Below, in pieces: positions 4,962-45,969 of a stretch of DNA of 62,310 bases. Source of the stretch: Oscillospiraceae bacterium (GTDB taxonomy: Bacteria; Bacillota; Clostridia; Oscillospirales; Ruminococcaceae). The translations under genes were made by a program, and so were the position numbers. The notes beneath the pieces were generated by a model. That model saw only the letters and a list, made by a program, of their open reading frames with translations, had not been told where the DNA came from and did no database searches. Location of the stretch: assembly GCA_017436575.1 (NCBI GenBank), contig JAFSCU010000009.1, positions 1 to 62,310 on the forward strand. The letters run 5' to 3'. Every line of letters starts with the position of its first letter. Within the stretch, counting starts at the first letter, position 1.

Positions 4962-5576
4962 ATGTTATTTCTTACCTCCAACGGACTTACAAGTGATAAA
5001 CTGAAGGCAGAGTTTATTTCTGTTATTGACAACAAAGGCAAAAAATGCGCTATCATACCTACTGCAATGGAAAAAGATAAGGATCATCAGCAGTGGCTGG
5101 AAGAAACAAAAGCAAGTCTTGCACAATATGGACTGGACTGCGATTATTTCTATTTTGGTCAGGATGAAAATGAAAAACTGGCTGACTATGATGTAATTTA
5201 CATCTGTGGCGGCAATGTTTTTTATCTGATGCAGATGATAAAACAATGTTGTGCCGAAGATATTCTGCGCAAAACTGCACTGGAAAAGGTAGTTGTAGGA
5301 GTATCAGCCGGCAGCCTGATAATGCAGAAAGACCTGGAGCTTATCCGCGACCTTATTCCAAGGATGAACAAGCGTGTAAAGCTTAAAGACTTAACAGCGC
5401 TTGATATCACCAATAATATTGAACATTTACCGCATAAAACCCGTTATATTGGCATTATTGATGCTTTTGAAAAACGCGTAAAGACTTATGAGCGCAAAAC
5501 CGGGCATAAAGTGATATGTCTTGAAGATGGTCAGGGTATAATTATTGATGGTGATACCCACAGAATAATCGTATAG
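4962..5576 (+). CDS. Peptidase E-like protein (peptidase S51 family)
   Basis: Class I glutamine-amidotransferase fold with a serine nucleophile. PepE proteins of this family cleave N-terminal Asp-Xaa dipeptides; others make or degrade cyanophycin-type peptides. In the 204-residue product the ICGGNVFYLM strand-loop (81-90) and the nucleophile elbow GVSAGS (Ser115) are clear. It is slightly shorter than E. coli PepE (about 229). The start lies two bases after the GDPD stop and has no separate ribosome binding site, so it is likely translationally coupled. The family call is strong; the exact substrate is not visible. Confidence 0.82.
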   Translation: MLFLTSNGLTSDKLKAEFISVIDNKGKKCAIIPTAMEKDKDHQQWLEETKASLAQYGLDCDYFYFGQDENEKLADYDVIYICGGNVFYLMQMIKQCCAEDILRKTALEKVVVGVSAGSLIMQKDLELIRDLIPRMNKRVKLKDLTALDITNNIEHLPHKTRYIGIIDAFEKRVKTYERKTGHKVICLEDGQGIIIDGDTHRIIV

Positions 5577-5580
5577 CAAA

Positions 5581-5608
5581 AAAGAGATTGGAAAAATCCA
5601 ATCTCTTT
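5581..5608. terminator. Bidirectional intrinsic terminator
   Basis: AAAGAGATTGGA and TCCAATCTCTTT form a perfect 12-bp stem with a four-A loop. T or A runs on both sides let it serve both the peptidase gene and the convergent merR-type gene. Confidence 0.92.
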
Positions 5609-5614
5609 TTTAAT

Positions 5615-6379
5615 TTATGCAAGATAAATTTTCATTGCTTCATACAGGAAATCTGCACAGCCCGGGGCTATTTTTTCATAGTATTCTTTGAATCTTTCGT
5701 CCTGGGTGTACATAAGACACAGGTTAAGATGAGCTTCTTTATTATAGAAATTCCAGTAATAACCCAGCCACTCTTTGTGCAATGCACAGGCTTTCTGAGC
5801 TGTTTCTGATGCAGGATCGCCTTTTTCAACTGCAATTTTCAATGTTTTATTAAGCAGTTCATTCAACTCTTCCAGACTGTTCCAGTTATCCAGAGACATA
5901 TCCAGTATTTTTTTATTTGTGTCATCCACTGCTTTGTCGCCATATTTTCTGCGTGCTTCTGCACCATATTTTTCTTCATTTTTATCTACAATGTTCTGTT
6001 TGAACGCCGCAAATTTTTCTTTGTCTGACATTGTGGTTTCTCCTTTTAATGAAAGTATTGTTTTGTTTACATTGTCTATTAACCGGTTTATTTTAGCTTT
6101 TTGATTTTCAAGTTTTACAAGATGGCTTTCAAGGGCGGTTACTGGATCAAACTCATCTGAATTTAAAATGTTTTTAATATCATCCAGTTCCATATCAAAA
6201 CTGCGATAAAACATAATCTGCTGTAATTTGTCAACCTGTTGTGAACTGTAATATCGATAGCCGTTTTCCCCTTTTTCCCGTGGTAACAGCAAGCCTATCT
6301 CTTCGTAGTATCGCAATGTTCTGCTGGAAACACCCGCCAGCTTTGACAGCTGGGAAATAGAATATTTCATAATAATCAC
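5615..6379 (-). CDS. MerR family regulator with TipAS antibiotic-sensing domain
   Basis: A 254-residue transcription activator. Residues 1-70 hold the MerR winged helix (SQLSKLAGVSSRTLRYYEEIGLL), about 75-110 form a coiled coil for dimerisation (LVKLENQKAKINRLIDNVNK), and about 135-250 are a TipAS domain, known from Streptomyces TipA and Bacillus Mta to bind thiopeptides or other drugs. The TipAS part shows the typical helix with ALHKEWLGYYWNFY. The promoter immediately upstream has the 19-bp spacer characteristic of MerR-activated genes, which suggests autoactivation on drug binding. The only close upstream gene is a membrane protein on the same strand. ATG lies nine bases after AAGG. Confidence 0.92.
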   Translation of the reverse strand: MIIMKYSISQLSKLAGVSSRTLRYYEEIGLLLPREKGENGYRYYSSQQVDKLQQIMFYRSFDMELDDIKNILNSDEFDPVTALESHLVKLENQKAKINRLIDNVNKTILSLKGETTMSDKEKFAAFKQNIVDKNEEKYGAEARRKYGDKAVDDTNKKILDMSLDNWNSLEELNELLNKTLKIAVEKGDPASETAQKACALHKEWLGYYWNFYNKEAHLNLCLMYTQDERFKEYYEKIAPGCADFLYEAMKIYLA

Positions 6380-13997: not shown

Positions 13998-14131
13998 AAT
14001 AATCTCCTGTTGTATTAATTGATTTAATTATATTATTCTTTTCTTTTAAAATCAATAGATCTGTAAAACTTGTTAATCTATTATAAATATGTTATACTAT
14101 TTAATTAGAAAACTTATTAAAAGAGGTTAGT

Positions 14132-14548
14132 ATGAACAGTTATAAATTCAGCGATTTGTCTGTAGGTATGAGTGAAAAGTTCACAGTTACAATCACAGAA
14201 GAAATGATGAATAAATTTATAGAAATCACAGGCGATGTAAGCCCTATTCATGTAAGTGCAGAATACGCAAAGGAACATGGCTTTGCCACAAGAGTGTGCC
14301 ACGGCATGCTGTTTGGCAGTATGTTTTCCACTATGGCCGGTGTATATCTGCCGGGTGAACACTGCCTGCTGCACAGTGTGGAAACTAAATTTTCACTGCC
14401 TGTATACCCTGGCGATGTGCTGACAGTTACAGGCAAAATCAGCGAAATCAATGATACATTCAAAACTGTATTTGTAAAGGGCACAATTACAAATCAGAAC
14501 GGCAAGAAAGTGTGCAAGGCGAATATTCAGCTGGGGGTAAGAGAATGA
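14132..14548 (+). CDS. MaoC family (R)-specific enoyl hydratase
   Basis: Adds or removes water across a trans-2-enoyl thioester by a hot-dog fold. The 138-residue single-domain protein shows the active-site pair Asp35 and His40 in GDVSPIH and the helix HGMLFGSMFS. Compared with the common GDxNPxH motif it has Ser in place of Asn. The start has AGAGG seven bases upstream. Its stop overlaps the start of the following reductase gene (ATGA), so the two are translated together. With the ketoreductase it could make or dehydrate a 3-hydroxyacyl group. Confidence 0.88.
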   Translation: MNSYKFSDLSVGMSEKFTVTITEEMMNKFIEITGDVSPIHVSAEYAKEHGFATRVCHGMLFGSMFSTMAGVYLPGEHCLLHSVETKFSLPVYPGDVLTVTGKISEINDTFKTVFVKGTITNQNGKKVCKANIQLGVRE

Positions 14549-15276
14549 GCGTTTATCTGATTACAGGTGCAACAAGCGATTTAGGTTTTGAACTGATTAA
14601 AACTGTGGCAAAAGATGGTGACAAATTTCTTCTGCAGGGTTTTGGTGATGAAAGCGCACTGAAAGCTTTCTGCGAAGAAAACAAAATCGATTACACATAT
14701 TATGATGTAAATCTTTCTGACAGTGTTGCCACTGACAAATTTGTGGAAGATATCAAATCCACAGGACTTACACCGACACATTTTGTTCACCTGCCTGCCC
14801 TGCGTGTAGTAAATACAAAGTTCAAAAGTTTTGACGAAGAAAGATTTATGGCAGATATGAATGTGCAGGTTATGAGTGCTGTAAAAATCTGCAAATATAT
14901 TATGCCAAAAATGGCAAAAGCTAAATTTGGCAGGGTGCTGTTTATGGCAACCAGCTATGTGCTGGCTAATCCACCTAAAAACACAGGTGCATATATTATG
15001 GCCAAAAATGCTATAGTTGGGCTGATGAAAAGTCTGGCAAGCGACTATGTTTCCAACGGCATTACAGTAAACAGCGTAAGCCCAAGTATGATTGAAACAA
15101 AATTCCTGGCAGAAACCAGCCACCTGATTGTGGAAGCCGCCGCCAACGACCACCCTATGAAACGCAATGCGCAGGTAAATGACGTGGTACCTGCAATGGC
15201 TTTCCTTTTAAGTGAAGAAGCAAGATTTATCACAGGTGTAAACCTGCCTGTTACAGGAGGTAGTGTAATTGAGTAA
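14545..15276 (+). CDS. Short-chain dehydrogenase/reductase (FabG-like)
   Basis: NAD(P)H-dependent reductase of 243 residues. The nucleotide motif is TGATSDLG at 7-14, and the catalytic residues are Ser137 (MATSYV), Tyr150 and Lys154 (YIMAK). The C-terminal PVTGG segment is typical of FabG-like ketoacyl reductases. The ATG at 14545 overlaps the maoC stop and has GGGGGT upstream; the longer reading from 14512 lies inside maoC and is not used. Likely role, by context, is reduction of a carrier-bound 3-ketoacyl group. The next gene overlaps it by eight bases. Confidence 0.88.
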   Translation: MSVYLITGATSDLGFELIKTVAKDGDKFLLQGFGDESALKAFCEENKIDYTYYDVNLSDSVATDKFVEDIKSTGLTPTHFVHLPALRVVNTKFKSFDEERFMADMNVQVMSAVKICKYIMPKMAKAKFGRVLFMATSYVLANPPKNTGAYIMAKNAIVGLMKSLASDYVSNGITVNSVSPSMIETKFLAETSHLIVEAAANDHPMKRNAQVNDVVPAMAFLLSEEARFITGVNLPVTGGSVIE

Positions 15277-16243
15277 CAATATAAGACGTGTACCGCTGGC
15301 TGAAAAAGAACTGATTGTAGATTTTCTCAATGAAAACTGGGGTTCAAAACATCCCCTTGTAAATAATGAACAGCTGTTTAACTATTATTTCCTTGATGGA
15401 GATATGACAAACTTTTATGTGTCTGAAGATGAAAAAGGTGTGGCTGCCCTGTGTGGTTACATCAACTGCAGCAACGGCGAAAATCCGGATATATGGGTTT
15501 CTATCTGGTGTGCAAGAAAAGGCAAAAACGGTCAGGGTCTGGCGCTGATGGGCGCGATGAAAGAACTGACAGGCGCACAGGTGATGAGCTGTAACAATAT
15601 CAGAGAAAACACAATGCCTTTCTATACTTTCCTGGGCTATCACCCTGACAAGATGAAGCATTACTACCGCTTGGCTGACAGAAGCGAATATAAAATGGCA
15701 GTAGTAAATGAAAAAATTATTCCTGAAAGCGTGAAAAAAGAAGGCGTATGGCTGGAAGAAATGAAAGATATTGCACAGGTGGAAGCCACTTTTGCAATAC
15801 CTGCACACTGTCGCCCACGCAAAGACTACTGGTATATTGATAAAAGATATTTCAAATACCCTCATTACGAATACAAAGTATTTGCTGTACACAGCTGTGA
15901 AAATGTGCCTGCACTGGTGGTTTTCAGGGTAAATGAAAGTGACGAAGGCTATGTATTGCGACTGGTTGACTACATTGGTGATAAAAAAGACTTCTGTCTG
16001 CTGTCCGGTTTTGTGGATGAACTGATGCAGAAATATGACTGTGAATACTGCGATATGTACTGCTGGGGTGTTGATGGCGAAGATGCAGGTTTTGTACTGC
16101 GTGTAGCTGATGAAAACATTATTCCAAACTATCTGAATACATTGCTGCAGAAAAACATTGACTATTTCTTCTTTACCAGTGATACAGAAAATTTTATGAT
16201 GTTTAAAGCTGATGGCGACCAGGACAGAAAAAACCTGGGATAA
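15269..16243 (+). CDS. GNAT-like N-acyltransferase of the acyl-carrier cassette
   Basis: A 324-residue protein with an N-terminal GNAT-like core (VPLAEKELIVDFLNENWG, then WVSIWCARKGKNGQGLALMGAMKELTG and a late YTFLGYHPDKMKHYYRL) and a second half that may repeat the fold (EDAGFVLRVADENIIPNYLN). Such proteins occur in surface-glycan loci where they move an acyl group from a carrier to an amino sugar; that is inference here. Starts at TTG, 15269, after an AGGAGG that lies within the end of the SDR gene. Last gene of the maoC-SDR-GNAT operon, closed by a terminator. No glycosyltransferase is nearby, so the acceptor is unknown. Confidence 0.7.
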   Translation: MSNNIRRVPLAEKELIVDFLNENWGSKHPLVNNEQLFNYYFLDGDMTNFYVSEDEKGVAALCGYINCSNGENPDIWVSIWCARKGKNGQGLALMGAMKELTGAQVMSCNNIRENTMPFYTFLGYHPDKMKHYYRLADRSEYKMAVVNEKIIPESVKKEGVWLEEMKDIAQVEATFAIPAHCRPRKDYWYIDKRYFKYPHYEYKVFAVHSCENVPALVVFRVNESDEGYVLRLVDYIGDKKDFCLLSGFVDELMQKYDCEYCDMYCWGVDGEDAGFVLRVADENIIPNYLNTLLQKNIDYFFFTSDTENFMMFKADGDQDRKNLG

Positions 16244-16266
16244 TAATTCGTAAATATCAAGAAAAT

Positions 16267-16289
16267 GGGAGAGCATCGCTCTCCCCTTT
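16267..16289 (+). terminator. Intrinsic terminator after the GNAT-like gene
   Basis: GGGAGAG CATCG CTCTCCC followed by CTTTTT. Confidence 0.88.
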
Positions 16290-16304
16290 TTACATTATAA
16301 AAAA

Positions 16305-16915
16305 TGTACAAAATATATAAGAGCCGCTGATATTTCAACGGCTCTTTATGTCTAATCACTACTGTTTTAGTGGGCTGTTATAAATGTCCTTTTATGCTTT
16401 ATACGGTGCTTTTTTGTTGTCGACATATAACTTTCTTTACAATTATACATCTTGGTTTTGTTTTATTTCTTTTCTTTATTCATTACACATATCTTTAAAC
16501 AATCTATTGTGATCCTGTCACTTTTACGATACGACAATATTTCTTACCTTCTTTACGATATTACTTTATTGTGACTGTTTCTTTTCATCGATATGCTTCG
16601 TTTTTTATTAAGCATCCTGCATTTTGTAAGCATAGAACATCTGCAGAAAATTTCAGATTAATTTCTATTTCTCCGTATATTTTTTAATATCCTCATATCC
16701 CTTCTGATTTCCGATACCCTGTGTATCTTCTTTTCATTTTATGATACTTTTCGAATATTTTTTAATATCACTATAGTTTCATCTGATTTTGTTTTAATGT
16801 CTTTTATATGACTTTCTTTACAATCATATTTTCTTTGGCATTTTTTGTTTTTATTTTCTGCTCTTGCCAGGAACAGCATTTACTTAATGTGCCATCGGCC
16901 CCACATCCTTTTCTT
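16305..16915 (-). ncRNA. Candidate large structured noncoding RNA, about 610 nt
   Basis: No reading frame of note lies in this stretch, but the minus strand looks like an RNA gene. A consensus promoter (16950-16922) points into it. The minus strand is strongly purine-rich and carries many short stems with A-rich loops: 16858-16876, 16806-16829, 16713-16727, 16593-16615, 16505-16539, 16425-16448 and 16357-16372. Two stems at 16806-16829 and 16425-16448 share the identical 12-base loop UUGUAAAGAAAG while their stem pairs differ and still pair, and a related loop recurs near 16545-16557. Two stems use G-U pairs that exist only in minus-strand RNA. A 15-base direct repeat is at 16677-16691 and 16755-16769. 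Length and style recall large RNAs such as ROOL, GOLLD or OLE, but I do not recognise the sequence. Confidence 0.6.
16320..16345 (-). terminator. Probable terminator of the candidate RNA
   Basis: Stem AGAGCCG / CGGCTCT with a 12-base loop. On the minus strand it is followed by a U-rich but interrupted tail (UUAUAUAUUUUG, then six Us near 16303-16298). Confidence 0.55.
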
Positions 16916-16921
16916 GACTAT

Positions 16922-16950
16922 ATATTACCATATCGCCACACAGTTGTCAA
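16922..16950 (-). promoter_or_regulatory. Consensus sigma-A promoter reading into the gene-free region
   Basis: Minus strand TTGACA (16950-16945), exactly 17 bases, TAATAT (16927-16922); start expected near 16915. About 170 bases of nearly pure A/T upstream (16951-17120) could act as an UP element. It is cut off from the abc-F gene by a strong terminator, so it must drive a transcript of its own. Confidence 0.8.
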
Positions 16951-17125
16951 CTGTTAAAAATTTATTTAATTAAGTTTTATGTGATTTTTAATACTTTTAA
17001 TTAAATATAGTGTAAGTATTTTTTAGTATTTCATTTTTTAATTAAGTTTTTCTTGATTTTAAAGTTTAGATTCAAAGCTTATTAAATTAATTTATATTAA
17101 ATTTTTCTTAATTTTATTAAATATC

Positions 17126-17162
17126 AAAAAAGTACCATTTCCCTGTGAAAATGGTACTTTTT
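17126..17162 (-). terminator. Intrinsic terminator after the ABC-F gene
   Basis: AAAAAGTACCATTT and AAATGGTACTTTTT form a long stem around CCCTGTG, with A and T runs on both flanks; it sits right at the stop codon. Confidence 0.92.
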
Positions 17163-17164
17163 TA

Positions 17165-18760
17165 TTATCTGTTATGTTTGTATTCAATATATTCGTCGTA
17201 TGTCATCATCTTATCGATAATAGAACCGTCCGGCTGAATTTCAATAATTCTGTTGGCAATAGTCTGAATAAACTGGTGGTCATGGCTGGCAAAAAGTACA
17301 GTGCCTTTAAAATCAACCAGGCCGTTATTTACTGCTGTAATGGATTCCAGGTCCAGATGGTTTGTAGGCTGGTCCAGCATGATTACATTTGCCTCTTTCA
17401 TCATCATACGGGACAGCATACATCTTACTTTTTCACCACCGGAAAGAACATTTACCTTTTTGAAAACATCGTCGCCGGAAAACAGCATTCTGCCCAGGAA
17501 GCCGCGGAGATAGCTGTCTGTCTGGTCTTTTGAATACTGGCGCAGCCAGTCGATGATAGTATCATCAATACCTTCAAAAAAAGCAATATTGTCTTTTGGG
17601 AAATAGCTGCGGGAAGTGGAAACACCCCATTTGATAAAGCCTGAATCAGGTTCCATTTCGCCGTTGAGAATTTTAAACAATGCTGTCTGACCGGCTTCGT
17701 TATCACCTACCAGAGCAATTTTGTCAAGGCGGTTGATATAGAAAGAAATATTGTCCAGAACTTTGATACCGTCAATAGTTTTGGAAAGTTCTCTTACTTC
17801 CAGAACATCTTTACCTACTTCCCTGTCCTGTACAAAGCCAACAAACGGATATTTACGGCTGGATGCAGGCATTTCTTCCAGCTGGATATTATCAAGAATT
17901 TTCTTTCTTGATGTAGCCTGTTTTGATTTTGATTTATTTGCAGAGAAACGGCGGATAAATTCTTCCAACTGTTTGATTTTTTCTTCTTTTTTCTTGTTCT
18001 GGTTGCGGATAAGCTGGTTCATCAGCTGGCTGGATTCATACCAGAAGTCATAGTTGCCGGCATACATTTTTACTTTGTTGTAGTCAATATCAACTGTGTG
18101 TGTACATACGGCATTAAGGAAATGGCGGTCGTGGGATACAACCAGTACTGTGCCGGGAAATTCAATAATAAATTCTTCCAGCCATGCAATAGCATCAATA
18201 TCCAGGTCGTTTGTAGGTTCGTCCAGCAGGATAATACTTGGTTTGCCGAAAAGGGCTTTTGCCAGCAGAACTTTAACCTTGTCACGACCTTTCAGGTTTT
18301 TCATCTGCATATAGTGGTATTCTTTATCCACACCCAGACCGTTGAGCAGCTGCAGAACTTCGGTTTCTGCTTCCCAGCCGTCCAGTTCGGCAAATTCGCC
18401 TTCAAGCTGTGCAGCGCGTTCACCATCTTCTTCAGAAAAGTCAGGTTTTGCATAAAGTTCGTCTTTTTCTTTCATAATTTCATACAGTCGAGGGTTGCCC
18501 ATAATAACTGTTTCCATTACATAATATTCGTCGAACTTGAAATGGTCCTGTTCCAGAACTGACATACGGGCGTTTTTATCCAGGAAAATTTCGCCTTTTG
18601 TAGGTTCACGGAGACCGGAAATAAATTTAAGCAAAGTACTTTTACCAGCACCGTTTGCGCCGATGATGCCATAACAGTTGCCCTGTGTAAAAGTAAGGTT
18701 TACATCTTTGAATAAAGTTTGCCCATCAAATTCGTGGGTTAAATCTTTAATTGTAAGCAT
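17165..18760 (-). CDS. ABC-F family ATPase (YkpA/YbiT-like) with altered second nucleotide site
   Basis: Soluble twin-ATPase protein of the ABC-F group that works on the ribosome E site, aiding translation or giving antibiotic protection. In 531 residues, domain 1 has Walker A GANGAGKS (34-41), a non-standard signature LKGRDK (156-161) and Walker B LLDEPTND (178-185). A charged linker (about 240-300) follows. Domain 2 has GDNEAGQT (352-359), where the Walker A lysine is Gln358, a normal LSGGE (439-443) and LDQPTNHLD (462-470), where the catalytic glutamate is Gln464. Both changes are plain in the codons (CAG). I recall Asn or Gln at the second glutamate in relatives of this clade; the lysine loss looks rarer. 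No membrane segments. Monocistronic. Confidence 0.9.
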   Translation of the reverse strand: MLTIKDLTHEFDGQTLFKDVNLTFTQGNCYGIIGANGAGKSTLLKFISGLREPTKGEIFLDKNARMSVLEQDHFKFDEYYVMETVIMGNPRLYEIMKEKDELYAKPDFSEEDGERAAQLEGEFAELDGWEAETEVLQLLNGLGVDKEYHYMQMKNLKGRDKVKVLLAKALFGKPSIILLDEPTNDLDIDAIAWLEEFIIEFPGTVLVVSHDRHFLNAVCTHTVDIDYNKVKMYAGNYDFWYESSQLMNQLIRNQNKKKEEKIKQLEEFIRRFSANKSKSKQATSRKKILDNIQLEEMPASSRKYPFVGFVQDREVGKDVLEVRELSKTIDGIKVLDNISFYINRLDKIALVGDNEAGQTALFKILNGEMEPDSGFIKWGVSTSRSYFPKDNIAFFEGIDDTIIDWLRQYSKDQTDSYLRGFLGRMLFSGDDVFKKVNVLSGGEKVRCMLSRMMMKEANVIMLDQPTNHLDLESITAVNNGLVDFKGTVLFASHDHQFIQTIANRIIEIQPDGSIIDKMMTYDEYIEYKHNR

Positions 18761-18841
18761 TAATTACTCTCTTTCTTTTCAAGTGGGTTTAAATTGCGTA
18801 ACTATATAATTATATCATAATATTATATCTATAACAATTGG

Positions 18842-20245
18842 CTAAACTGTATAATTAATATCAGTTGCCTGGTTGCGTATATCGTCAATAATCTGTTTTA
18901 TTGTTGTAAGTGCTTTTTCGAGGTCTTGGTAAGTATCCGGACCGGAAGTAGACACACGCAGAAAATATCTGCCACCTGCATCCCCTGTGAGAAAGCGTTC
19001 AGAACCATACACCTTTACCCCCGCTTTTAATGCAACAGATTCAAAGGCCACACTGCTGATGCCCTGTGGCAATTCAAGCCATTGATAATAGGAGTTCATG
19101 TTGGATACCGGAAAATATTTTGCATATATTTCATTGCGCTTTTGGGTCAGCAAAATATGTTCTGCCAATGACTTTTCATAAACACAGCTGTTAATAGCAT
19201 ATGCCGCAATCTGTGCAGAAAACCAGTCCACAGTCAGATTGCAATTATAATTGGCCTGTTCCAGCTTTGAACGAAATTTTTCATCATAACAAATATAGCC
19301 TGTTTTGATACCGGGACTGATTGCTTTGTTAAGCTCTGTAAGATAGATTGCATTGTCAGACACCATATTGTATATAGGCTGCGGCTTGTTTTCTATCAGA
19401 AATGCATAACAATCGTCCTCAATCAGTATCAGATTATAACCGTCAATCAGCTCTGCTATCTCTTTTCGCCTGTTCAGTGGCATACAGGTGGCCTGCGGAT
19501 TGGAGCAAGACGGCGACAAGTATATTCCCTTTACATTATTGGTATTTAGAATTTTCTTCAATTCTGCAACATCCATACCATATTCATCACTTGGAACAGT
19601 CAGCAAAACAATGTGTAGCATATTGGCAAGTGCAAGAAAGTTGGGATATGTATACTGGTCAACTATAATTCTATCCCCTGCTTCAAAAATACCGGCCAGA
19701 ATTAGTGTAAGAGAATTCTGGCTGCCGTTTGTGATAAGTATTTCCCCTGTTGATTTTATATTGAAATTATCCAACCATTTTCTTGCTGCATGCAGCTGAT
19801 AGTCAGTACTGGCAGGGTTGGCAAAACGGATATTGTCTGCAAATGATTTATCTTGTGTAATTTCATTTATAATGAGTTTTAACTGTTTTATATTTGGCTG
19901 TGGAGAAACTGTAATGCCCACATTGATAATATTCTTTTCTGTATTAGTTTCTACCACAGACTTGATGGAATTGATTGATGAATTTACAAAAGTGCCTTTT
20001 CCTGTCACTGCATACAGCAGACCGCGTTTTTCACACAGGGTGTAGGCACGGGTTATAGTGTTGAGACTGACATCAAGGTAGTCTGCCAGTTCTCTCTGGG
20101 GCGGCAGTTTTGTGCCCACAGGCAATACACCGCTGGCTATATCCTTTTCCATAAGTTCTGCAAGAGAAGTATAGATAGGATACTTCAGTTTTTCCCTATC
20201 CGGCTTCCATGTAAGTATATAATTTTCAAACGAGTTTACAGGCAT
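18842..20245 (-). CDS. MocR-type GntR regulator with aminotransferase-like domain
   Basis: A 467-residue regulator. Residues about 10-80 hold a GntR winged helix (YTSLAELMEKDIASGVLPVGTKLPPQRELADYLDVS), and the rest is a type I aminotransferase fold that binds PLP or an amino acid (GSQNSLTLILAG, SPSCSNPQATCMP, LIEDDCYAF). In the usual lysine position the sequence reads TELNKAISPGIKTGYI, so a PLP-binding lysine is retained. The start at 20245 follows GAGGAGAG; the upstream ATG at 20293 lies in the operator region. Divergent from a glutamate synthase-like gene, with repeated boxes between them, so it very likely controls that gene and itself. Confidence 0.9.
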   Translation of the reverse strand: MPVNSFENYILTWKPDREKLKYPIYTSLAELMEKDIASGVLPVGTKLPPQRELADYLDVSLNTITRAYTLCEKRGLLYAVTGKGTFVNSSINSIKSVVETNTEKNIINVGITVSPQPNIKQLKLIINEITQDKSFADNIRFANPASTDYQLHAARKWLDNFNIKSTGEILITNGSQNSLTLILAGIFEAGDRIIVDQYTYPNFLALANMLHIVLLTVPSDEYGMDVAELKKILNTNNVKGIYLSPSCSNPQATCMPLNRRKEIAELIDGYNLILIEDDCYAFLIENKPQPIYNMVSDNAIYLTELNKAISPGIKTGYICYDEKFRSKLEQANYNCNLTVDWFSAQIAAYAINSCVYEKSLAEHILLTQKRNEIYAKYFPVSNMNSYYQWLELPQGISSVAFESVALKAGVKVYGSERFLTGDAGGRYFLRVSTSGPDTYQDLEKALTTIKQIIDDIRNQATDINYTV

Positions 20246-45744: not shown

Positions 45745-45782
45745 TTTTTATTGCCAACATATATTGCTGATGATATAATTGA

Positions 45783-45969
45783 TTTGTTGGGGAAACAGGT
45801 GCAAAACCTGTGCGGGCCCGCCGCCGTAATACACGTTGTTTTTTACTCTTACCTGCCGCCACAGGCAGGGACAGGTCATTGGCTATGCTGAGAAGACCGG
45901 GTAAAAAGTGTACAGCCGGAATATCCGACAGTAAAACTGCAATACAGCCGCGAGCGCCGGTATGCAGTG
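45783..45969 (+). promoter_or_regulatory. Cobalamin riboswitch
   Basis: Conserved blocks in order: GGGGAAACAGGTGCAAAACC (45789-45808), TGCGGGCCCGCCGCCGTAA (45811-45829), and the B12-box-like TGCTGAGAAGACCGGGTA (45887-45904). A following hairpin ACTGCA-TAC / GTA-TGCAGT (45936-45969) could be the expression platform. It lies just before the DUF4430 lipoprotein and ECF S component genes and should turn them off when cobalamin is plentiful. The stretch 45666-46001 holds no other gene. Confidence 0.9.

Follow-up and report, generated by a model that had tools for sequence, protein, structure and literature searches.

An unrecognised putative structured RNA with an eight-nucleotide hairpin loop and a 5′ start signal, and its apparent relatives in distant gut bacteria

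Introduction

To our knowledge, large structured RNAs of bacteria are few, and we know of no function for ROOL or GOLLD. ROOL is found in phages or prophages, often near tRNA islands. RNAIII of Staphylococcus aureus, which is about 500 nt long, combines a small 5′ ORF and its Shine–Dalgarno (SD) sequence with a long-range closing helix and a repeated loop motif; its loops are C-rich and bind the SDs of its targets. In CsrB the repeated GGA hairpins are sites for the protein CsrA. Passages of PMC11706538 describe the raiA motif RNA (ModT) as structured, widespread in Clostridia and without a telling neighbour, and passages of PMC12286853 describe ROOL, GOLLD and OLE as forming homo-oligomers.

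Here we describe a candidate RNA from an Oscillospiraceae bacterium, encoded in a stretch of 62,310 nucleotides (contig JAFSCU010000009.1, positions 1–62,310) that is called the window below. Positions 16918–16314 of the minus strand very probably encode a long RNA that folds strongly. It is like RNAIII in its size, its putative 5′ small ORF with SD, its closing helix, its many hairpins with a repeated loop and its own promoter and terminator, but the repeated loop is GUAAAGAA (the octaloop) and not C-rich and SD-complementary. With ROOL, GOLLD and OLE it shares a large, ornate form, a single transcription unit and A-rich stretches; unlike them it is without a covariance or phage match, and a 5′ start signal and the octaloop hallmark set it further apart. 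The identical loop repeated on different stems recalls CsrB and RsmZ, although it contains no GGA, is present in one to four copies rather than many and is accompanied by other conserved helices. As in what the passages on raiA (ModT) describe, the RNA is structured, spread in Clostridia and set among uninformative neighbours, but it is larger, has a 5′ frame and lacks an Rfam raiA match.

Results and discussion

The predicted transcription unit and its neighbours

The initial annotation had proposed a large structured non-coding RNA with its own consensus promoter in a gene-free stretch between two terminators. The promoter was found (16922–16950, minus strand), with a −35 hexamer TTGACA (16950–16945), a 17-nt spacer, a −10 hexamer TAATAT (16927–16922) and an A/T-rich block upstream, and the promoter scan gave it 10 of 12 matches with a TG ahead of the −10. 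As 26 promoter-like sites occur in 14000–19000 against 16.4 in shuffled sequence, the match by itself is weak proof. By eye, all eight homologues described in the next section have TTGACA and a TATAAT-like hexamer in the equivalent position. The unit measures about 605 nt (16314–16918, minus strand), which bears out the proposed 610 or so, and ends in an intrinsic terminator of 12 pairs (16319–16346, minus strand), in which four of nine pairs show two-sided changes. A second terminator-like hairpin (17164–17125, minus strand) lies 3′ of an ABC-F gene, and no ORF of 50 or more amino acids overlaps 16360–17164 on either strand, so the gene-free stretch between terminators stands. The ABC-F ATPase gene (17165–18760, minus strand) is the upstream neighbour; it has its own terminator and lies outside the RNA. 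Its best NCBIfam models are ABC-F ATPases, at scores under the curated cut-offs, and an orthologue was found in all 16 genomes of the genus. Also as annotated, a 15-base element, GATATTAAAAAATAT, is present twice in the minus-strand RNA, at 16769 and 16691.

Homologues within the genus

A blastn search with the whole unit (E ≤ 0.001, 61 genomes) matched eight of the 16 genomes that belong to the window's genus, counting its own, and none of the 45 non-genus genomes. These copies, referred to as type A, form the subclades A1 (G000, G010, G015 and G001), A2 (G009 and G013) and A3 (G005 and G008). Seven of them span the complete gene; a contig end splits the G005 copy, and the 3′ remainder opens another contig. 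The 5′ block AAGAAAAGGA(U)GUGGGGCCGAUG and the TTGACA promoter are present in all eight, the hairpins recur and so does the terminator, unless a contig end intervenes. Seven of the type A contigs belong to Oscillospiraceae or Clostridia metagenome-assembled genomes (MAGs), five being from ruminant rectum or caecum.

At a permissive threshold (E ≤ 1) all 16 genus genomes gave a blastn match, and only the eight with E below 1e-6 were taken as homologues. The weaker matches were rejected as short chance matches, yet three of them proved to be hairpins of a second RNA (type B, below). A search with the 5′ pattern returned 14 genome–contig records, of which seven were of the genus and the other seven were set aside as chance, lying in open frames of at least 122 codons and having no GTAAAGAA within the following 1.5 kb. 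Model R1 matched 10 of 396 genomes of the family, five of them in the genus; the remaining five (loci L064–L067 and L069) were discarded because by eye they lacked the architecture. No type A match was obtained among plasmids, among phages or in viral contigs.

Folding and helices of the type A RNA

The minimum free energy of the window RNA (16918–16312) is −120.6 kcal/mol, compared with −82.5 ± 4.7 in 20 shuffled sequences (z −8.1); once the last 60 nt are removed z is −5.6. The three subclades were folded independently, the A3 fold coming from a single sequence. All three folds contain the helices P1, P2, P3, P6 and P7, the terminator and the first and third octaloop hairpins. Only the folds of A1 and A2 include P8, P9 and P10; in A3 the strands of P9 and P10 were located by eye. 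The middle arm of the RNA is variable.

On the minus strand, P1 joins both ends of the RNA through GUGGG (16900–16904) and CCCAC (16370–16374) and, being invariant in all seven sequences, is uninformative on covariation. P3 pairs GCAGAAAA (16854–16861) with UUUUCUGC (16643–16650), that is GCAGAA../..UUCUGC, with 55 of 56 cells paired and a two-sided change in one pair. In P6, GAUGUUC (16635–16641) faces GGACAUU (16383–16389) and three of seven pairs show two-sided changes. P7, formed by UGCAGGAUGCUU (16610–16621) and AAGCACCGUA (16402–16411), differs in its letters between subclades and was left out of the pair count given below. P9 (AACAGUC, 16573–16579, with GAUUGUU, 16498–16504) and the P10 hairpin (GUGA-CAGGA-UCAC, 16509–16521) have two-sided changes in two of seven and two of four pairs respectively. 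Conserved pairing in related genomes had been set as a check on the proposal: with eight homologues in hand, 412 of 414 cells were paired across 60 hand-listed pairs (nine helices), 17 of these pairs showing two-sided changes, although the strand list was drawn from predicted helices and is biased towards pairing. The stronger structural evidence is the agreement of the separate folds together with the slide control on octaloop hairpin 1. Homologues, common helices and compensatory changes support a large structured RNA that has its own promoter.

The hallmark of the RNA is a hairpin with the 8-nt loop GUAAAGAA closed by a U-A pair and mostly a U.G pair, and the window has three copies on the minus strand. 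In the stem of hairpin 1 (16806–16829, loop 16821–16814) four of seven pairs show two-sided changes (eight sequences); 100% of 55 cells are paired against 82% when shuffled, covariation is 0.607 against 0.229, and pairing falls from 100% in register to 22–58% after sliding. Hairpin 3 (16422–16451, loop 16440–16433) has 11 pairs, the inner seven of which are paired in 49 of 49 cells (seven sequences), two pairs varying on one side only. Hairpin 2 (16545–16560, loop 16556–16549) is weak, with only four pairs; its counterpart in the relative G015 has seven. A model, R3, was built from 12 octaloop hairpins of types A and B and scores 36.0 bits for hairpin 1 (on which it was trained), 37.3 bits for hairpin 3, 19.4 bits for hairpin 2 and 36.8 bits for the G015 counterpart of the last. 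An identical loop of 12 bases had been annotated in two of the hairpins; the identity is real (TTGTAAAGAAAG at 16823–16812 and 16442–16431), whereas the size is not, the true loop being GUAAAGAA inside the U-A and U.G pairs. Among the matches listed for the 16 genus genomes, 26 score at least 32 bits and all lie in type A or type B loci, the next listed match having 25.9 bits. One of the 26, on contig G005:C11, belongs to the 3′ remainder of the split type A gene, which is interrupted where G005:C34 ends.

A second octaloop RNA in the genus

Type B was traced from weak genus matches by inspecting them for the hairpin. It occurs in seven of the 16 genus genomes (L072 in G002, L073 in G006, L074 in G014, L075 in G011, L076 in G004, L109 in G007 and L110 in G012) and never beside type A; G003 has neither. 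The RNA lies between the T-box leader of an alaS-like gene and a penicillin-binding protein-like gene (gene names by reading; T-box leader by Rfam at L017, L068, L074 and L109). By eye it has a promoter-like TTGCRT-N17-TATATT, and it has an SD and a terminator; the six readable copies are 646–727 nt long. Each of these six carries a frame of 33 codons (MKTEEHS..), in which codon differences over all pairs are 132 non-synonymous and 22 synonymous. Two type B hairpins have 100% of 112 cells paired, with two-sided changes in 4 of 16 pairs, a value reached by 7 of 500 shuffles. The type B search also matched five type A genomes, in the flanking gene only. By eye, no RNA of this kind lies 3′ of ABC-F in the seven type B genomes, and none was seen at the alaS site in the four type A genomes viewed. 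The type B pattern found no match in viral contigs, and model R2, made from the type B domain, matched one of 297 genomes, the genus member G004. The abc-F neighbourhood in which homologues had been expected is constant for type A, which lies 3′ of ABC-F on the same strand in all eight copies; it does not extend to type B, which sits elsewhere, or to the more distant members described next, which by eye have other surroundings.

Apparent relatives beyond the genus

Matches of R3 were kept if they lay outside long open frames and if the surrounding unit had a promoter, an SD and a start codon; terminators were judged mostly by eye. In the family, 389 non-genus genomes were sampled and 6 of the 13 matched were kept, which means that either the class is sparse or R3 overlooks the majority of its members. 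Of 11 genomes matched in the order G000, G077 and G050 were kept, and of 20 matched in the class G000, G1055 and G1051. The others were dropped because they lay in open frames or by eye lacked promoter and start signal; G813 and G611 were viewed around the match only, and in both it is inside an open frame (202 codons in G813, 108 in G611). The kept members were sorted into group C (G077, G304 and G388, family), with a 22-codon frame in all three; group D (G061, family), with four R3 matches; group E (G180 and G249, family), of about 1.39 kb; group F (G050, order); group G (G1055, class), with the octaloop atop the terminator and the frame MRK; and group H (G1051, class), a C. difficile-like genome with the frame MGMIEDEPLIIN. 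A blastn match of group E led to a further member with the octaloop on the Subdoligranulum variabile record OY725842.1, which is labelled as a plasmid ('plasmid 8'); this member (group S, L175, approximately 5070–5690) has three frames of the form SD-CC-AUG, namely MYSTEEPVQSVQGV, MH and MQF. The G1051 member, of 447 nt (L195, 4709–5155), has a prs-like gene on one side and, on the other, a c-di-GMP-II riboswitch that precedes a pilin gene, an order that we take to be that of C. difficile.

Eleven representatives of nine groups gave fold z values from −3.6 to −10.6, and from −1.9 to −7.5 minus the last 60 nt, with 20–30 shuffles each. Among the loci viewed no gene neighbour was constant across groups. 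The window itself shows what defines the class, namely the GUAAAGAA hairpin with a U.G second pair, in a non-coding position and within a unit that has a 5′ SD and start codon. The class appears to be spread thinly through Clostridia, and as R3 is biased to AT-rich stems and the exact loop this spread is a lower bound.

In all, 39 octaloop hairpins with 19 distinct stems were counted in 24 RNAs of nine groups. Hairpins with at least four pairs number one to three per RNA, one apiece being counted in types B, C, E–H and S. The invariance of the loop is partly a product of selection, since the loop was both in the training set of R3 and a requirement of the count. The second pair is U.G in 36 of the 39. 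The G at +10 is present in 38 of the 39, mostly opposite U, where A would pair better, and its retention suggests sequence recognition by a partner. Across 16 stems, which came from hairpins picked for pairing, 39 cells show two-sided changes against 11.3 when shuffled (reached by 0 of 500 shuffles), and eight of nine pairs have a two-sided change (reached by 44 of 500).

The 5′ initiation signal

At the 5′ end of the window RNA (16884–16914, minus strand) the SD AGAAAAGGA (16914–16906) precedes a mini-ORF, ATG GCA CAT TAA (16895–16884). The start codon and an in-frame stop at codon 4 are conserved in all eight type A homologues, the frame being ATG GCA CAT TAA in A1, having a TAG stop in A2 and reading ATG TAC TAC TAA in A3 (peptides MAH* in six homologues and MYY* in two). 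The term 'non-coding' is therefore not strictly apt. As the start codon lies beside and within the predicted arm P2, translation and structure may compete there. An SD of at least five letters, CC and a start codon were found within 100 nt in all 11 representatives against 2–15% of the shuffles of each, although groups G and H were accepted partly by SD context, which makes the signal circular in them. The frame behind the 5′ SD varies from 2 to 33 codons across the representatives. Two further ideas fared less well. Mini-ORFs along the RNA were rejected as a class feature, there being no enrichment over shuffles (42 SD mini-ORFs of up to eight codons seen in 15 sequences, 32.3 expected). An 'exceptionally extended SD' was also weakened: the type A SD scores 8 or 7, scores of at least 8 occur in 6 of 43 window ORFs and scores of 3–7 in the other 37, and the 15 segments tested range from 6 to 12.

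Searches of known families and literature

In the window RNA, and at the type A, type B, group C–H and S loci, no Rfam 15 family came up to its gathering score. The scans used gathering scores, and also E ≤ 10 for 16000–17200 of the window and E ≤ 0.5 for 24 other loci; the same searches did detect 6S, T-box, tRNA, c-di-GMP-II and cobalamin elements. The suggested comparison with ROOL (RF03087), GOLLD, OLE, HEARO and raiA was made, and none of these is among the 26 matches with E ≤ 10 in 16000–17200, where the best sub-threshold match by E-value is MicX on the plus strand (E 0.023). Nor was raiA matched in the 24 other loci at E ≤ 0.5. ROOL had no match in the window's own genome; 14 control genomes were also silent, so this search is weak alone. 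The two 5′ patterns had no matches in viral contigs or in phages, and, to the extent viewed, the RNA is flanked by ordinary genes in the window and in its relatives. The beginnings of abstracts and the article passages searched (including PMC11651100, PMC3649979, PMC7438776 and PMC10267692) contain no description of an octaloop RNA; the C. difficile copy may nevertheless be annotated in supplements. We would thus regard the octaloop RNA as a probable new class, in no catalogue searched, with apparent relatives in distant gut bacteria.

Possible function and alternative explanations

A structured RNA class with a 5′ initiation signal is well supported by these comparisons of sequence, and we hypothesise that its octaloops capture ribosomes. 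The reading we prefer, held tentatively and with somewhat less than even confidence, is an autonomous, trans-acting RNA in which ribosomes would be engaged at the 5′ end while the octaloops would be shown to one partner. Ribosomes would load at the 5′ end and make or abort a tiny peptide, and this loading would protect or localise the RNA. The octaloops would bind one conserved partner, the preferred candidate being the translation machinery: AGAARG (octaloop and closing letters) could pair with CUUUCU at the end of 16S rRNA, an end taken to be as in B. subtilis, and the occurrence of either A or G at R could follow from their common ability to pair with U. By several such contacts the RNA would hold or sense ribosomes. 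The kept start signal, the near-irrelevance of the frame content and the long kept fold favour ribosome engagement as such, for stability or sensing. Against this, pairing with 16S rRNA would explain only AGAARG and leave the invariant GUA over, and a protein is almost as likely as the ribosome to be what recognises the octaloop. Also unfavourable are the lone octaloop counted in types B, C, E–H and S, a type A SD that is good rather than exceptional, the lack of mini-ORF enrichment and the place of the start codon at P2. A bolder version, which we think unlikely, would be a Clostridia-wide ribosome-docking RNA, a 5′ mini-gene plus octaloops offering AGAARG to the 16S 3′ end, that would serve as a store, a counter or a parking place for ribosomes or initiation subunits, its place and sequence shifting between clades while the device is kept. 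If the ribosome link is true, this would be a new way for an RNA to act on translation. The 22-nt signature is a simple search handle, the start signal is defined, and with apparent members in Subdoligranulum variabile and a C. difficile-like genome expression and partners are directly testable.

The closest competitor, possible but less probable than ribosome engagement, is a scaffold or sponge in which each octaloop hairpin would be a site for an RNA-binding protein that the RNA titrates or organises. An identical loop on varied, covarying stems, a second pair that is U.G in all but three of the 39 hairpins and a variable copy number (one to three with at least four pairs, and four R3 matches in G061) are what such a sponge might present. 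However, sites in mRNAs normally compete for a protein of this kind, and the genus matches listed outside the RNA loci reach at most 25.9 bits; a single copy suffices in many members, and further helices of the RNA are conserved as well. The 5′ frame found in all groups would instead suit a dual-function RNA of the RNAIII kind, with a peptide and a 3′ part that pairs with target mRNAs, or a small-peptide mRNA with a long 3′ UTR. The 33-codon frame in six of six readable type B copies, the 22-codon frame in three of three group C members and the E-E/D-E-P common to several peptides (MGMIEDEPLIIN, MIGEEPKHLVPAL.., MYHTEEPVQLVQGV and MYSTEEPVQSVQGV) point in the same direction. We nevertheless consider it improbable, as the window frame has only three codons, non-synonymous codon differences predominate in type B (132 versus 22) and type A conserves RNA rather than peptide.

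An ornate structural RNA that assembles with its own copies or a partner, as ROOL, GOLLD and OLE do, is less likely still. Its size and A-rich look are comparable, it has a long-range closing helix and many arms, and homo-oligomers are described for all three in passages of PMC12286853, but there is no Rfam match to any of them, the octaloop is not self-complementary and no phage or viral contig was matched, although the Subdoligranulum member is on a plasmid-labelled record. That the locus is a decayed gene or a chance structure is already contradicted by the covariation results and seems hardly credible: simple stems are frequent in A/T-rich, purine-rich sequence, but conservation with compensatory changes across species, and a hairpin found in 24 RNAs of nine groups, would not follow from it.

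Other elements at the loci

Some further elements were noted in passing. In the genus member G003 (L108), which is without either RNA type, ABC-F is directly followed by a TTGACA that resembles a promoter element, together with an SD and a short frame. At the group C and D loci (L146, L147, L148 and L149) a 6S RNA gene is close to the octaloop RNA, which by eye is divergent from a DUF1292-like gene. Elsewhere in the window a cobalamin riboswitch was detected on the plus strand (45751–45946, 48.6 bits). Two group C RNAs have a sub-threshold Thr_leader match at the 3′ end (L147, 815–923, minus strand, and L148, 2194–2304, plus strand), with E-values of 0.024 and 0.04 and scores of 33 and 32 bits of 55.
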